Assembly: GCF_000196115.1 (NCBI RefSeq)
Contig: NC_005027.1
Coordinates: forward strand, 5,514,001-5,578,000
Length of the DNA stretch: 64,000 bases
Source: Rhodopirellula baltica SH 1
GTDB lineage: Bacteria; Planctomycetota; Planctomycetia; Pirellulales; Pirellulaceae
Direction: 5' to 3'
This document shows, one piece after another, positions 56,064 to 64,000 of the stretch. How positions within the stretch are numbered: the stretch's first letter is position 1; the number at the start of each line of letters is the position of its first letter. A model generated the notes under the pieces. The model made no database searches, had not been told where the DNA came from, and worked only from the letters and a program-made list of their open reading frames with translations. A program made the translations under genes and the position numbers.

Positions 56064-57518
56064 TTAAACGCGGATTCCGAGTTTTGCTTCCATTTGCTCC
56101 AGCGAGATGCCCTTGGTTTCAGGCAACATCGTGATGACCCAAAGTCCTTGCAGGACCATCATGAAGCAGAAAAAGCCGAAGATGGCAGCGGGATGAAACG
56201 TCTCCACCACGGCCGGAAAAACAAGCGTCAGCAATGCCGCAAAGATCCAGTGCGTGAAGCTTCCCAGCGATTGACCCGCGGCACGATGCTCGTTGGGAAA
56301 GACTTCTGAGATCAGCACCCAAATGACCGCACCCTGCCCCATCGCGTGCGATGCGATGAAGGCGAAAATGCATGCGGGAACAATGCTAAATGTTTCGGAT
56401 TGAAAGGCGTAGGCGCACGTCCCCAGCGACAGGATGTAGCCCGCCGAACCAATCAGTAGCAACGTGCGACGACCCAGTCGGTCGATCAAATACAAGCCCA
56501 CAAAGGTGAAGATCAGGTTGGTGATACCAATGCCGATCGATTGCAAAAGAGCGGCTTGTTCGCCCATACCGGCCAATTCAAAAATTCGCGGTGAGAAGTA
56601 TAGAACGGCATTGATTCCAGAAAGCTGATTGAAAAACGCGACGAGGAATGCAATGGATATGGGAGTGAATAGTCGACGGCTCCAAAACGGTTCCGCGGGA
56701 GTCAGGTCCGACTCGGCACGGAGAGAGGCGACAATTTCATCGACCGTCCTTTGCACCTCTTCATCGGACGCATCTGGCCGTAGTTGTTTCAGAACCGACA
56801 TGCCGGCCGCTTGGTCTTTCTTGACCGCGATCAACCATCGAGGGCTGGATGGCAACGAAATGCACATGACGGTGAAGATCAAAGCGGGGATCGCTTCCAC
56901 CGCCAACATCCATCGCCAAGCATTCTCGTTACCCCAGGTGCCAATCAGATAATTGGACGCGAACGCGACCATGATTCCAAAGACGATGTTGAATTGAAAC
57001 AATCCAGTCAAAGTCCCGCGATGTTTCGGTGGCGAGATTTCAGAGATGTATAGCGGAGCCGCGACGGTAGAAATTCCAACGCCTAAGCCGCCGATGAAGC
57101 GAGCGATCATGAACGAGAAAACGTCGGTCGCGAAACCTGACCAGATCGCCGAAACCAAGTACAGAATTCCGATCCAGAGCAACGTCTTTTTGCGTCCAAA
57201 TTTGTCAGTTGGCCAACCGCCGACCAAGGATCCGATGACGGTCCCCCACAACGCGGCGCTCAGAGCAAGACCGTGTTGGAAATCACCCAGCGCCCACAGA
57301 CCCTGGATGGCTTTTTCAGCTCCGGAAATAACGACTGTGTCAAAGCCGAACAAAAACCCCGCCAAGGACGACGTCAAACTCCACAGGAAAACACGCTGAT
57401 TCAATTTTGATTGCCCGATGTTGGAACGTTGCTCGTCGGAGGCACGCTGCTCAACCGCCGTGCCAATGATTTCGCGCCGACCGAGCGTTTGCGTGCCCGC
57501 CGTTCCAAAGTCTAGCAA
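56064..57518 (-). CDS. MFS sugar porter
   Basis: 484 residues from TTG 57518; the first 40 residues are soluble and a start nearer 57404 is possible. Twelve-helix sugar:proton symporter family: LAGFLFGFDTVVISGAEKAI in helix 1, GGWPTDKFGRKKTLL (the R-x-G-R-R-type loop), RFIGGLGVGISTVAAPLYISEISPPKHRGTL, FNQLSGINAVLYFSPRIF and PETKGISLEQME at the end. Substrate is probably a hexose or pentose. It begins 4 bases after the end of the dab-like operon on the same strand, so readthrough from it is possible. Confidence 0.9.
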   Translation of the reverse strand: MLDFGTAGTQTLGRREIIGTAVEQRASDEQRSNIGQSKLNQRVFLWSLTSSLAGFLFGFDTVVISGAEKAIQGLWALGDFQHGLALSAALWGTVIGSLVGGWPTDKFGRKKTLLWIGILYLVSAIWSGFATDVFSFMIARFIGGLGVGISTVAAPLYISEISPPKHRGTLTGLFQFNIVFGIMVAFASNYLIGTWGNENAWRWMLAVEAIPALIFTVMCISLPSSPRWLIAVKKDQAAGMSVLKQLRPDASDEEVQRTVDEIVASLRAESDLTPAEPFWSRRLFTPISIAFLVAFFNQLSGINAVLYFSPRIFELAGMGEQAALLQSIGIGITNLIFTFVGLYLIDRLGRRTLLLIGSAGYILSLGTCAYAFQSETFSIVPACIFAFIASHAMGQGAVIWVLISEVFPNEHRAAGQSLGSFTHWIFAALLTLVFPAVVETFHPAAIFGFFCFMMVLQGLWVITMLPETKGISLEQMEAKLGIRV

Positions 57519-57522
57519 GACT

Positions 57523-58980
57523 TCATTCGGGTATGTTCACCGCTGTGGATGAGTGTTCATGGGATGCGGCGTTGGCTGGTTCGCCATCAGGCGGAGTGTC
57601 GTGGCGCAAACGCGTCAGTTCCTTCGCGGCGTGATAACGCGAAGCGATTCCCGGTTGTGGGTACAAACCGCCACCAAGCAGCAACAACGTCAGCAGCAGA
57701 ATCGCGAAACGTTCAGCAGGGCGAGCCCGCATCGAAACCAAAGTTCGATTTTCGCGACCGGTGAATACTCGGAAATAGGCGAGCAACACCGCGATGCCGC
57801 ATAACGCCGTTGCGATCACCACCATCGTCCCAACCAACGGGTAAACCTCGACCGCGCCTTCGATCAGTAGTTCCATTCCAACGAACCCGATCGTTGCAGG
57901 GAATCCAATTGATGCGAGTCCGGTCAGCAGAAAGAATCCTGCCAGCATCGGCATTTGTGCGTAGAGACCGTGGAACTCGTCCAACGAAAAACGAGAAATT
58001 CTTGCTTCGATGCATCGCAACGTGATCCCAAATCCGGTCAGCGACATGGCCACCGACAACCACAAGCTCAACGCACCGGTCAGTCCGGTAGGCGTGACCA
58101 GTTCCAGTCCAACCAAAATCAACGAAGACTGAGACAGAAGCAAGAAGCAGAACATTCGGCGAGCGTCCGATTGCACCAACGCCATCGCACCGGCATACAC
58201 CGCCGTGAACAAGGATAAAACCGCGATGCTTTGCAACGCCCACGAAGGAGCAATCGGCAAAACCAATCGCATCACCGCGTAAGCACCCACCAAGGGAGTT
58301 GTGTGCAAAATCGCGGTGCCAAAGGTGGCCTTTTCGAACAGATCCGTCATCCACAAGTGCAACGGGAAAATGCCACTTCGAAGCAGACCCGCCGCGGTCA
58401 GCAACGCACCTGGAATCAGAATGGCGGTGGTGCCGGAGTCGACCAGCGTCAACCACCCATAACCAACGACCAGCAACCCAGCGAACAGGCCCATGTGCAA
58501 ACAATAAATCCGTGTGCACCGCTGGCGACGTCGCAGTTCCAAGAAAGGCGGAATGGTGGAAGCGATCAACAACGCGACTAATGCCCATGATGCGCGACAA
58601 CTGAACGTTGCCAACACCAACGACTCTGAAATCAATGCCAACTCAAGCGAGAAACGTGGTGCCTTTGTGCGAAGCGTTGATAGCACGATGACCATGAAAA
58701 TCAACGCTGCCAACGGAAGCTGAAATGCACTCAGTTCGTCAATCACGAAAACATCCGGCGGAAAGATCCAGCTCAGAAATTGCCAGTGGTCGTGAGCTTC
58801 GAATGCGCCGACCATGGTGAAGTCGACCAGTTCGCCAATCGTCAACAACAATGTCACGATGCAGATGACAACGGTGTCCCGCAACGCGCGTTCGCTGTTG
58901 CTGCGGAGTTGCAACCAGACGGCACCGAGCAGTGGAACGAGAATCGAACATTCGATCCAGGGAAAATGCAGTTCAGACAA
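57523..58980 (-). CDS. Third, NuoM/MrpD-like membrane subunit of the Dab-type operon
   Basis: 485 residues with about 13 hydrophobic segments. Proton-conducting antiporter-like family: RSGIFPLHLWMTDLFEKATFGTAILHTTPLVGAYAVMRLVLP is the conserved central part, with the lysine/histidine region of complex I membrane subunits. The start is TTG 58980, placed 7 bases after AGGGA, which overlaps the dabB stop. It is not a copy of the DabB-like gene. Known Dab complexes are usually a DabA plus one DabB, so its role is open: extra proton path or assembly partner. It is followed by the sugar porter. Confidence 0.78.
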   Translation of the reverse strand: MSELHFPWIECSILVPLLGAVWLQLRSNSERALRDTVVICIVTLLLTIGELVDFTMVGAFEAHDHWQFLSWIFPPDVFVIDELSAFQLPLAALIFMVIVLSTLRTKAPRFSLELALISESLVLATFSCRASWALVALLIASTIPPFLELRRRQRCTRIYCLHMGLFAGLLVVGYGWLTLVDSGTTAILIPGALLTAAGLLRSGIFPLHLWMTDLFEKATFGTAILHTTPLVGAYAVMRLVLPIAPSWALQSIAVLSLFTAVYAGAMALVQSDARRMFCFLLLSQSSLILVGLELVTPTGLTGALSLWLSVAMSLTGFGITLRCIEARISRFSLDEFHGLYAQMPMLAGFFLLTGLASIGFPATIGFVGMELLIEGAVEVYPLVGTMVVIATALCGIAVLLAYFRVFTGRENRTLVSMRARPAERFAILLLTLLLLGGGLYPQPGIASRYHAAKELTRLRHDTPPDGEPANAASHEHSSTAVNIPE

Positions 58981-58992
58981 CGATGGGGATCC

Positions 58993-60402
58993 CTATGCGG
59001 CGGTGGAGATGTCTTGTGGCGTGTTGTCGTCAAAACCAGACTCATCGGTTTCGACGTTGGAATCAGGTTCCCGCGAGAGAAAACGAGTGATCCGTTCTTC
59101 CGTTCGATTGCAGGCGAGGAAGAAACCCACGAATGGTCCCGCAATCCAACGATCCAGGGCAATGTCCATGAAGCCTCGGTCAAACCCGAATCGATAACAC
59201 CAACGTTGGACTGGTTTTGGCAACCAGCCCACACCTGACCAAGGTTGTTGCTGCAAGCGAGAACCAATTTTATTCTCGAGGTCGTTGTAGTCTCGAAGCA
59301 GGGTTGGAGCCCTGAGCAACTGCATCGTTCGCAATGTCGCATGCCCCATGATGTGAATGAGCGCGAGGTAACGCAGGCCCAATCCGATTTCGACGACGAT
59401 GATTCCGACCTGAGTCAGAGACGCATACGCGAGCGACGTTTTTACATCGGTTTGCACCCGAGACATCAAGGCGCCTCCGATGGCCGAAATGACGCCGAGT
59501 GAGAGGACCATCACTTGCAATGCGAGTGAAGCTTCCAACAAGGGGCTGAGACGAAGCAACAAATAGGCACCCAAATGAACCGACAAAGCCCCGTAGAAGA
59601 TTGCACTCGACGGAGTTGGCCCTTCCATCGCGCGCGGCAACCAACCGCTGAATGGAAAGAGTGCCGATTTCCCTGCTGCACCGATCAGCAACAACGTGCC
59701 CACCAAGAGTGCCTGGGATGAAGTCACTGCCGCGGTTCCTTCCGGCCAGATTCCTGAGTTCATCAGACCGCCGAAATCGCCTTCGCCGACCATGTGATGC
59801 ATCGTGATCGCGGCAATCAACAAAGCGGCATCCGAGAGCCGATAGATCGTCCAAACGCGTTGTCCATTTCGAACCGGATTTTCGCGTTCGTGGAAATAGG
59901 CGATCAGCAAGGCAGACGACAATCCCACCATTTCCCATCCAACAAACAATGTTTCAATGGTGCCCGCCAGCGAAGACAGGACCATCCCGCAGTAGAAGAT
60001 CGCGTAGAACAAAAAGAACCGAGCAAAGCCTTGTTCGCGATGCAAGTATCGCCGCGTGAACTCTCCGACGACGCCGCATAGCACACACGAGAGCATCAAG
60101 AACGGAATGCTCAGTCGATCGAAGGTGAACTTCAAATGAAAGTGAAAGGCTTGTTCCGGAATCGTCACCCAATTCCCAAATTCGATCGGAACGTTTCGGA
60201 TTCCCGTCGCCAACATCGCGATCAAAATCGCAATCGCAGGAATGAGAGCAAGCAACACCGATGTTTGCGTGAGCCGAACCGTCGCTGTTTCGCTGAGCGG
60301 GCGATTGAAAAGCAAGGTCAACCCCATCACCGCCAGCAGCAACACGGGGCTGGCAACCACGGCGGTGCCCAGCACATGAAAGAAAATGTCCAGTGTGTTC
60401 AT
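58993..60402 (-). CDS. dabB: DabB-like proton-channel subunit (NuoL family)
   Basis: 469 residues, NuoL/antiporter-like membrane protein that in Dab complexes couples proton flow to DabA. Visible: [63 protein letters not shown], with the conserved Glu and following helix, and [44 protein letters not shown], the conserved lysine/proline segment. Its ATG overlaps the dabA stop (ATGA at 60399-60402), so translation is coupled to dabA. Shorter than NuoL of complex I, and no other complex I genes are near. Confidence 0.85.
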
Positions 60403-63400
60403 ACCAAAACCTCCGATGTGTTCGCGTCGGACTCGGATGAACTCACAGGCGTTTTGATCTCAGATTCTTGAATGGTCGCAAACCCGAGGTGGTCACGTTG
60501 GCCTCTGTACCAATGCATCGAGGACTGGACCGTTGGGATCTCACGATCGGTGACCACGTGCGGTTCAAAATGTCCGTCGATGTATCTCTGGATGGTGTAG
60601 GTCGACGGATCGAGGATGGCGAGCTGAACCCAGTTGCCTTCGACCATTCGCCGGATGCCTTCGTTTTCGGAAATGATCTTTTTAAGCATCTCTGGAGTGG
60701 TTTCGATGACAAACAAAATTCGCATCGGTTCGTGAATCTCAACCATTTGCTGTGAGAGACCCGGTCGCAGATCGCTGGCCGCACCTGTCATGACGCCGAC
60801 CATGGACGCCACATTGTGCGGCAACTTCGATCCACACCCGTAACCTTCAACGTCCACCGTCGAGAAGTAGTATTCCAAGCTGATGCCACCGCAAACCGGA
60901 ATCGCAGCTTGCAAGATGCGAGTGAGAATGTGTCCGTTTTCGTCATCCACCGTCGGGTCGTATTCGGTCACGAATGCTCTGCGATCCATGAACAAACCTC
61001 GCGACCAGTCACGTCGACCCACCGTGACCAATGCGTTGGTCGCGTGGTTGTATTCCGGTCGCGCTTGCGACAAATCTTCTGCGCGTTCCTCAACATGTTC
61101 GAGAGCTTCCTGAGGCGTCAAATCCAATGGAGCCGACTCAAATCGGCGGGCTCGTTCGTGAGCGTTGCGGGCTCGCGTTTCGATGACATCCGATTCAATT
61201 CGTCGGAACAGCTCACGAAGTGACCGCGGCAAGAGATCCAAATCGTAGTAGTCGACGTCGTCATTGCAGGTGTTGTGATAGGCCCCGACAAAGCGAACTT
61301 CATCGGGCAGTTCGATCCCCTGTTCGGCAACGCGGCGGCGCACCCGAGGGTCGTTGGCCATCACAGCGAATGCTCTCGCGTTGGGGCCACCACGACCTCC
61401 ACTGCAGGCACCACAGTTGTAAGCGGATTCGTGCGGGTTGTTCAGGCTGCCGCTGCCATGACCAAAGAACACGATGATGGGTGGGAAGGCATCGACCATG
61501 CCGATGTCTTGCAATATGCGGACGACAATTTGGGACATCTCATCGAGGCTGTAACCCATCGACGCCGGATCGGAACCAGGGGCATCGGCCAGTCGTTCGA
61601 GATGCAGCTCAGTTGCTGGCGGACGAACCAAGCTTCCCATCGATTCGCGAATCTGCGATGTCAAACGAGGTGCCAAGATGCGAGCGACCATCGGCACCGT
61701 CGCGATGGCACCAAACAAACCAGTGACCCAGCCGCCAATCAACGTCCGTGAGTTTTGATGAACTTGGTGAGCGAACCAACCCAGCCGTCGTCGCCGAACA
61801 GCACGTCGTTCACCGGCGGCCATCGAAGAAAACAACGGTTCTTCGCGGACGTAGTGTTGTGGTTTTACGATCGCCGGACAAAGAGGGCGGAAGCTTGCGT
61901 GATCGGCACCCTGGTAGTACATCGCCACGGCAAAGAAGCCGGCTGCCGATGCGGTGCGGCAATCCGGAGCGACCTCTTCTAGATGCCGCCGGAATGATTC
62001 TTCGCGGTCGTCGATGCAGAAAATCGCAGCGTAAGCTGGACGTCGTCGCGAATTTGTCGCGAGCTCACGTCGGCGACGAGAGTGAATTGAAATCGCATCG
62101 AGCGCCTGGTTGGCGTAATGGCGTTCGTAGGCGGCATGCAACAACCGGCGGCGATCCAATGACGCGAATGATTCGATTTCGGTTATCAAGCATCGCCATT
62201 GAGCGGACGACATGTTCAGCATCTGCTCGGGAGTCCAGCCTCCCAATTGAGCCAGCTGAAATACCGTGTGGGTGCGGGAACGCACGGAGGACGCGGACCG
62301 GACGTCCGCCGATTTCAACGCCAGTCGAAGGATCTCGCTCGCGGTTCCGACGTTGAACTTGGCTTTGCCGAAGTGCTCAATGGCGTGCGCGAGCAAAATC
62401 AAACGGATGGCCAAGTACTCGTTGAGAGATCCCTCGGGGATTGGATTCGCTAAGAATGGACCGTTTGTTTCCATCTGCCAAATCATTCCTGCCCAACCTC
62501 TCAGCGAGAGCAGACACTCGGACAGAAAACCTTCGCACTCATTGTTCGAAATACCCATTCGTTCCAGCGACTGTTCAATGCTCTGGATGGCATCCCAATC
62601 CGGCGACTGGACTTCACGTAGCGACGCGTCGACATGTTTCATCCAGTCCGCACGGATCGCCCACCGACCCAAGTACAAATCGGCGAACGCTTTGGCGAAG
62701 CCGTTTTCCCGCTCGGGCAGCTTCCAATCCGCGAACCCCTGGTCGAGGAAGCAGCCACAAAAACGAATCAGGACGTCATCAATCTTCGTCTTCAGATCAA
62801 TGCCAAGTTCACCCCGCATCAATCGATGGAGCGAATCATTGCTTGCCGTATTGGGTGTTTGAACCTCTGCTTTCTCAACGCCCTGTTGGCAAGTCTCCCA
62901 CAACGCGTGCAAGGTGAAGGATTCCCATTGCTGATCATTCCAGCGATGGATTTGGGATTCACCGGCCGCTTTTAAACGATCCTGCAGTGGAGCAGGTAGC
63001 GGAGATGCCGGATTCGACGATGTGGTGTCCGTGGTGATCGGTTCCAGATGTCGCATCACCCAACCACGTGTTTGGGTGATTGTTTTTTCGCGATAGGGCG
63101 CGGGAACTTCCTCTCGAAAGCGTTTCAACAATTCGCTCTCGGCCAAGACCCAACTGAGTCCTGATTCGGGCATGGGTTGCAGTTCGGTCTGCAACATTGA
63201 CAAACGCAGCGTGTAGCGAGTCCCAAATGTCGCCACCAATTTGTCGGCGTCATCCTGCAAGTCAGCCATCAAGACTTCGCGAAGATCCTCGCGGCTAATA
63301 CGACCTCGCAAAAGCTCTTGGTGGTAGCGTTCCTCGCTGAGATAGGGTTCGCAACCAAATCGTCGTCCACCCTCGATCACTGCTTTCTCGAAAGGCAGAT

Positions 63401-63620
63401 CTTCGAAAGCGTGCAGGGTGTTGTGGTGGACAAATACTGAGATAGGGCCCTGCGCAGGCAAGAAGTGACGTGCGTGTTCGATTGCTTGCAGGACGTTTGT
63501 GGCTTGATGTGAAGTGTTTGGTTGAGTGTCCTTGTGAAGGGCGGGAAGCGGTGATTTGAGACGGGTTGGCTGATTGTTGACTGGTGAGTGGTTTTGGCTC
63601 GACGTGTTGCCAGAGCTCAT
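60399..63620 (-). CDS. dabA: DabA-like inorganic carbon transporter subunit (DUF2309)
   Basis: 1073 residues. DabA is a beta-carbonic-anhydrase-like zinc protein that converts CO2 to bicarbonate, with uptake driven through DabB. The ligands line up: Cys535 and Asp537 in [14 protein letters not shown], His721 in [11 protein letters not shown], Cys736 in YNCGACSGG. The Cys-x-Asp pair and the 15-residue His-to-Cys spacing agree with the characterised enzyme. N-terminal [21 protein letters not shown] is also family-like. It is larger than many DabA. An array of palindromic half-sites lies about 210 bases upstream. Confidence 0.9.
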
Positions 63621-63910: not shown

Positions 63911-64000
63911 ATGTTTGACAATCACGATGGCCCCAGCGTCAGGGGATTCGCAGCGGTGCTGGCACTGCTGAGTCTGACGGCATTCGCGGTCACCGCGTCC
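63911..64000 (+). CDS. Possible start of a membrane or secreted protein (cut by window edge)
   Basis: From ATG 63911 the frame is open to the window end (30 codons): MFDNHDGPSVRGFAAVLALL and a continuing hydrophobic stretch, which would suit a signal peptide or membrane anchor. No ribosome binding site is evident, and the ATG at 63880 is in another frame and stops at once. Too short to identify. Confidence 0.35.
   Translation, partial: MFDNHDGPSVRGFAAVLALLSLTAFAVTAS

Follow-up and report, generated by a model that had tools for sequence, protein, structure and literature searches.

Within a 64,000-nucleotide stretch of the Rhodopirellula baltica SH 1 genome (contig NC_005027.1, positions 5,514,001 to 5,578,000; hereafter the window), we analysed the locus dabA-dabB-dabM, which encodes a relative of the two-subunit DAB complex, a CO2-hydrating pump powered by the proton motive force (PMF) and comprising the zinc protein DabA and the NuoL-like membrane protein DabB. 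The third gene, named dabM in the present analysis, encodes a NuoM-like membrane protein. DabA-DabB-DabM is a distinct DAB architecture and not a DAB with an extra pump. We read the locus as a three-subunit DAB relative, in which an obligate DabM supplies the missing half of a single composite DabB-DabM proton path driving DabA, and we put the probability of this reading at roughly 0.53.

The three genes lie in tight succession on the single contig of 7,145,576 bases that makes up the R. baltica genome (Table 1). As the initial annotation of the window had it, dabA and dabB have the four bases ATGA (60399-60402) in common, and 12 bases separate the dabB stop from the TTG start of dabM, with a purine-rich stretch resembling a ribosome-binding site on the dabB stop itself (TAG-GGATCC on the minus strand). 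The start of DabM is MSELH-like in most of the aligned rows. The third gene had also been described as antiporter-like and non-identical to dabB, and NCBIfam agrees: its product is nearest to NuoM (TIGR01972 NDH_I_M, 128.6 bits, under the curated cut-off of 263.8), whereas the dabB product is nearest to NuoL, also under the curated cut-off. DabM is therefore no copy of DabB, and an origin of dabM as a dabB duplicate was ruled out. The relationship of the R. baltica DabA to DabA2 of Halothiobacillus neapolitanus (PDB 9rd0_A) is clear (phmmer, E = 7.4e-62).

The adjacency of the third gene to dabAB in relatives, a check proposed with the initial annotation, was examined in depth across Planctomycetota (294 genomes; L, G, C and f labels below are our handles for loci, genomes, contigs and families). 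PF10070 was present in 68 of the 294 genomes (63 of the 280 of better quality), and the DabM profile matched at E <= 1e-50 in 31. A profile of the three-gene-type DabA exceeded 1200 bits, a limit chosen after the score list was seen, at 31 places in exactly the same 31 genomes. In each of them dabM is conserved on the same strand downstream of dabA, 1379-1747 nt from the DabA match, which is the space of dabB. As strong matches of both proteins fall, adjacent to each other, in the same 31 of 294 genomes, the pairing is not due to chance, and the outcome of the check speaks for the link. Below 1200 bits were G284 (1057 bits, also with DabM), G049, whose contig ends after dabB, and the half-size and fused kinds described below.

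A GTDB-wide contig scan gave 243 loci with DabM relatives, of which the best 80 were taken. The order dabA-dabB-dabM was found by script in 68 of these 80. The remaining 12 comprise seven contig ends (L103, L113, L122, L127, L133, L135 and L142), broken genes in L094, L139 and L120, an intact order that the script missed (L168), and L129, in which dabB was not found. All 80 titles are planctomycete or unplaced ('bacterium') save one, L161, which is labelled Verrucomicrobia and groups among planctomycete rows in the tree. The commonest spacings between dabB and dabM were a four-base overlap (28) and a one-base overlap (20), among the 80 placeable starts of 114 DabM frames. Because several genomes occur in both collections and were counted once per collection (e.g. 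L064/L158, L065/L151, L071/L150), the survey counts are not independent.

The cryo-electron microscopy structure of DAB2 (DabA2-DabB2 of H. neapolitanus, PDB 9rd0) provides the reference for DabA: Glu444 of its membrane finger occupies the place of NuoL Lys399/Asp400, and the finger variants E444A/Q are inactive (PMC13144422). With DabA2 as the ruler, we aligned 130 DabA rows, 106 of the three-gene type (with the half-size and fused cousins, L164 contributing two rows) and 24 canonical. The zinc-site residues Cys351, Asp353, His524 and Cys539 (DabA2 numbering) were found in 130 of 130 rows, and Arg355 in all but one (105 of the 106 three-gene-type rows); the R. baltica zinc-site residues C535, D537, R539, H721 and C736 are conserved. 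The features of the DIC-accumulating complex (DAC) family (PF10070/PF00361) are hence present, namely a PF10070 DabA with zinc and catalytic residues and a NuoL-like PF00361 partner alongside dabA. The finger glutamate is another matter. The Glu444 column holds Glu in 23 of 24 canonical DabA and neither Glu nor Asp in any of the 106 three-gene-type rows, where it is occupied by G (49), A (37), T (5), S (4), I (4), H (4), L (2) or Q (1). An acid elsewhere in the finger segment occurs in 9 of the 106, at the hairpin end or in a fragment. The finger Glu is present in three plasmid DabA, from Nocardia, Mycolicibacterium and Phaeobacter. The three-gene type thus departs from the DAB2 type on two counts, the finger Glu (0/106) and the missing TM12-15 of DabB (TM, transmembrane helix). 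A separate difference in DabA lies beside the Asp-Arg pair of the zinc site, where 104 of the 106 three-gene-type sequences have Glu for Ser356 of DAB2.

The three-gene-type DabB retains the equivalents of DabB2 Lys235, Ser256, Lys310 and His339, and the R. baltica protein retains K245, K321, H350 and D191. DabB2 has Ile for the E144-type Glu of NuoL, and the ion pairs to which these residues belong have been linked to the subunit interface in complex I (PMC13144422). At this position (Ile151 of DabB2), Glu was found in 101 of 101 three-gene-type DabB and in 0 of 20 canonical ones. Other swaps fixed in the three-gene type relative to DabB2 are His260 to Tyr and Lys347 to Arg (each in 100 of 101). 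By a crude count of hydropathy peaks (NuoL gives 13 and NuoM 11), 91 of the 92 complete DabB with a separate DabM (93 less the broken L094) have no hydrophobic peak in the 100-133 residues past TM11. The 20 canonical DabB have a median of 188 residues past TM11 with 3-4 peaks (four have 11-12, and all 20 at least 3), and eight long f37 DabB without a separate DabM have a median of 296 residues with 4-6 peaks. An AlphaFold2 model of the R. baltica DabB, with a predicted local distance difference test score (pLDDT) of 82.1, contains 11 long helices and a last helix, 409-443. In Foldseek, the model matched only part of NuoL/ND5 (template modelling score 0.53-0.54 by target length, best E. coli rows), and DabB2 (9rd0) was not among the best 50 of 543 matches. 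A tail related to the one that stands in place of TM12-15 (Table 1) follows TM11 in the long fused f37 DabB (hmmsearch, E 6e-6 to 0.009).

The proton-pumping residues of an antiporter subunit such as NuoM are a Glu on TM5, a Lys on TM7, a Lys on TM8 and a Glu on TM12. The AlphaFold2 model of DabM (pLDDT 86.7) matches NuoM/ND4 chains over its whole length, the top Foldseek row being chain M of mycobacterial complex I (template modelling score 0.83 by query and 0.78 by target). Nevertheless, the first three residues of the NuoM set are absent or changed in all 43 aligned DabM: the Glu144 column holds Glu in 0 of 43, Arg takes the place of Lys234 in all 43, and the alignment has a gap at Lys265, around which no column contains Lys. 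On TM12, all 43 have a Glu that lies one residue beyond the NuoM Glu407 column, in the column of NuoL Asp400. The corresponding position, E370 in R. baltica, could be read in 112 of the 114 DabM frames (the split frames L085 and L129 have no letters there) and is E in 108, D in 3 and G in 1. R201 is Arg in 112 of 112 readable frames, and Gly in three half-size DabM. Invariant positions among the 43 rows number 12 in residues 1-190 against 52 in residues 191-456.

Table 1. Features of the dabA-dabB-dabM locus and the adjoining gene, in window coordinates.
Feature	Position	Strand	Description
dabA (PF10070)	60399..63620	-	1073 amino acids; Pfam DabA 781 bits; presumed CO2-hydrating zinc subunit
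DabA E540 codon	62001-62003	-	DAB2 Ser356 position; adjoins the zinc-site Asp-Arg pair
DabA membrane finger, residues 624-652	61665..61751	-	without a glutamate equivalent to DAB2 Glu444
dabB	58993..60402	-	NuoL-like, 469 amino acids, PF00361 + PF00662; ends after about TM11
DabB E157 codon	59932..59934	-	NuoL E144 / DabB2 I151 position
DabB tail, residues 366-443	59074..59307	-	stands in place of TM12-15
dabM (third gene)	57523..58980	-	NuoM-like, 485 amino acids, TTG start; PF00361 81 bits, residues 186-393
DabM R201 codon	58378..58380	-	NuoM K234 position
DabM E370 codon, TM12 (GFVGMELL)	57871..57873	-	column next to NuoM E407 / NuoL K399, that of NuoL D400
Sugar porter	56064-57518	-	TIGR00879, 378 bits; longest frame starts about 5 bases or less from the stop of dabM

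Since DabB lacks the second half and DabM lacks the first-half residues, neither protein alone resembles a full antiporter, and together they resemble one. The acid lost from DabA has a counterpart in DabM at the equivalent position of the antiporter fold by alignment, as Glu444 of DAB2 occupies the NuoL K399/D400 site. These comparisons of sequences suggest that the proton path driving the enzyme may be assembled from two proteins. We tentatively propose, at somewhat less than even odds, that a whole DAB clade moved its essential proton-coupling acid from the DabA finger to TM12 of a NuoM-like protein, with the first half of DabB joining the second half of DabM in one channel, either in trans or fused. 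In the proposed mechanism, DabA would hydrate CO2 at the beta-carbonic anhydrase-like zinc site of which it keeps the residues. DabB keeps residues that belong to the cytoplasmic half-channel of NuoL-type proteins, and, judging from sequence and model, lacks the helices that form the periplasmic half together with the DabA finger in DAB2. DabM would be the obligate membrane partner, to which gene order, overlap and fusions point, and would make contact with the others. Protons would enter via the second half of DabM with its TM12 acid, cross to the Lys/Glu/His chain of DabB and drive DabA, and the acid on the NuoM-like helix would take over from the finger glutamate of DabA. The bicarbonate produced would feed anaplerotic carboxylases in a genome lacking RuBisCO (ribulose-1,5-bisphosphate carboxylase/oxygenase).

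Half-size and fused forms of DabM bear on this proposal. Three genomes (L092, L180 and L181) carry a half-size DabM of about 345-358 residues, in which the first half is cut to ~90 residues, and all three have Asp at the TM12 place. In 21 frames (f37, f63 and G280), a NuoM-like second half is fused in frame behind a truncated DabB; a motif search found the TM12 acid in 21 of 21 (Glu in 15, Asp in 6). For the one pair compared by hhalign, an f37-type extension and DabM, the probability was 96% (E 3.2e-9, 92 columns). Fusion of two genes, as of dabB with the NuoM half, is a usual sign that the products touch. We also considered that the long f37 DabB had regained the TM12 Lys of NuoL type; the alignment is poor there, and the tail and hhalign evidence favour a fused NuoM-like half. 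In the DabA tree, the canonical and three-gene types are split at 100 by two methods, the starred branches require two or more switches between the separate and the fused state (fusion or fission), albeit FastTree warned of meeting long branches, and DabB-NuoM-half fusions occur in two parts of the tree. At L087-L090 (f37), two divergent dabA-dabB pairs stand side by side, both DabB having the fused NuoM-like half. A further NuoL/NuoM-like open frame of 674-680 amino acids adjoins the DAB genes in L087, L186, L192 and L195.

Several observations weigh against a composite path in which the NuoM half replaces the finger acid. The match of E370 is one of alignment columns, one residue off NuoM E407. 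The DabM of L072 has Gly at E370, and its neighbouring dabA is split into two frames. Neither R201 nor E325 is retained in the half-size DabM. Of the 43 aligned DabM, 17 carry an acid no more than three columns away from the missing TM5 Glu, and E148, a few residues beyond it, is conserved, so part of a first-half path could survive in DabM. The C-terminal helix 409-443 of DabB might cross the membrane. Some f37 DabA carry an Asp further along the finger. The profile of the DabM C-half gives E. coli NuoM 104 bits and the f37/f63 extensions 9 to 55, and the fused halves resemble NuoM-type second halves generally, DabM in particular being only a possible ancestor; the score of L182 with this profile is inflated, because its relatives L092, L180 and L181 were among the sequences that built it. 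Finally, the DabA of L035, L038, L045 and L047 keep the finger Glu, and the long DabB of these loci, with 11-12 peaks past TM11, end in a NuoM-like half (28-51 bits). The NuoM half is thus not always a replacement, and these four may be intermediates.

The initial annotation had envisaged a variant complex, perhaps with two proton paths. The conserved extra NuoM-like gene stands, but a second complete path is unlikely, and a single composite path of DabB and DabM is the better reading. If DabM were an additional complete proton channel beside DabB, two protons would pass per CO2 hydration; the complete NuoM-like fold of the model, the acids that 17 of the 43 DabM have close to the lost TM5 Glu, and the idea, raised in the 2017 COGNAT paper, that the number of membrane subunits is related to the number of ions would all agree with this. 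We nevertheless regard it as improbable, as the TM5 Glu and TM8 Lys are lost and the TM7 Lys is Arg in 43 of 43 DabM, DabB itself has no second half, and three DabM have a first half of only about 90 residues. DabM could instead be purely structural, closing the open side of the truncated DabB and holding the DabA hairpin, with protons passing through DabB alone. Most charged proton-path residues are lost from DabM, DabB retains its Lys residues, and the half-size forms lack R201 and E325, yet the TM12 acid is present in 111 of the 112 separate forms, in all 21 fused ones and in all 3 of half size, which is more than a plug would need, and we consider a purely structural role rather unlikely. 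Use of Na+, or transport of bicarbonate in the manner of MpsAB in place of proton-driven CO2 hydration, is a further possibility, given that MpsAB has been argued to use Na+ (PMC13144422); the retained residues of the beta-carbonic anhydrase-like zinc site speak against it, no search for evidence of a Na+ site having been made, and its probability appears low.

Compared with DAB2, the three-gene complex has the same DabA zinc site (Cys2His with the Asp-Arg pair) and a NuoL-like DabB with the conserved proton-path Lys and His, but DAB2 consists of two subunits with the finger Glu444, a 15-helix DabB with Ile at TM5 and no NuoM-like subunit. The premise of the initial annotation, that DAB complexes comprise DabA and one DabB only, was incomplete. 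According to PMC13144422, DAB1 of H. neapolitanus (hneap_0907-0909) has three subunits, the third being a small hypothetical transmembrane protein; DAB1 shares the number of genes with our locus, whereas its third protein is not NuoM-like. The COGNAT paper (2017, PMC5700660) describes ybcC (dabA) before a nuoL homologue, NuoM and SulP genes being frequent in such cases, and suggests that more membrane subunits may mean more ions, the function being unknown at the time. Its clade C, ybcC-nuoL-nuoM, has the same order as the R. baltica genes, with COG1008 NuoM and COG0659 SulP frequent, as stated in one line; the passages considered mention neither the shortening of DabB nor the loss of the finger Glu, the residue swaps or the fusions. 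We found no report of these four features in the open-licence full-text literature. Gene order was thus known before, and the four features appear, at the level of sequence, to be new. With NuoM (ND4) of complex I, DabM shares the fold over its length, but E144 and K265 are missing from it, K234 is R, and its gene lies beside dabA. The cyanobacterial NDH-1MS is likewise, by description, a complex I-type membrane complex coupled to vectorial CO2 hydration, but is driven by ferredoxin oxidation (PMC13144422). In canonical loci of planctomycetes dabB precedes dabA (20 of 20 paired), whereas it follows dabA in the three-gene locus; R. baltica itself has a second DAB, of the canonical type (C1:580710), in which dabB likewise comes first and a third gene is absent.

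As for the surroundings of the locus, the sugar porter gene (Table 1) was tried as a further member of the unit and rejected, as it follows dabM in only 1 of 87 loci with enough flank. Divergent to dabA are genes for a PAS histidine kinase, a sigma-54 response regulator and a SulP transporter (L004:9912-14600), located at or beyond the right end of the window, the first starting at window position 63911. Of 26 other DabM loci for which sufficient upstream sequence was available, 14 contain a match to the SulP protein, 10 one to the regulator and 8 one to the kinase. The sole PF00484 beta-carbonic anhydrase match of R. baltica lies in a frame also holding a SulP domain (L176:1423-3444; G000:C1 near 5995533). 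A plasmid-borne origin is not supported, as blastn of the whole three-gene unit against plasmids gave no match. DabA matches were present in 123 plasmid records; the three examined were all canonical dabB-dabA, the NuoM-like gene being absent from the listed features. A DabA-like open frame of 573 amino acids in G119 (L196:5264-6985; PF10070, 314 bits in two stretches) has the first and last parts of DabA without the catalytic middle and adjoins an IS21-like pair; PF10070 pieces matching it occur in G144 and G202, two further genomes of the same genus.

The three-gene type is a natural test of the mechanism proposed for DAB2, as the residue and helices held responsible there are gone and another protein has been added. 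It may also be an instance of two subunits sharing one antiporter-like channel. The initial annotation had placed the unit in a likely heterotroph, in keeping with which the RuBisCO large-subunit family PF00016 had no match in the R. baltica genome. For planctomycetes including R. baltica, the complex is a likely means of bicarbonate supply.

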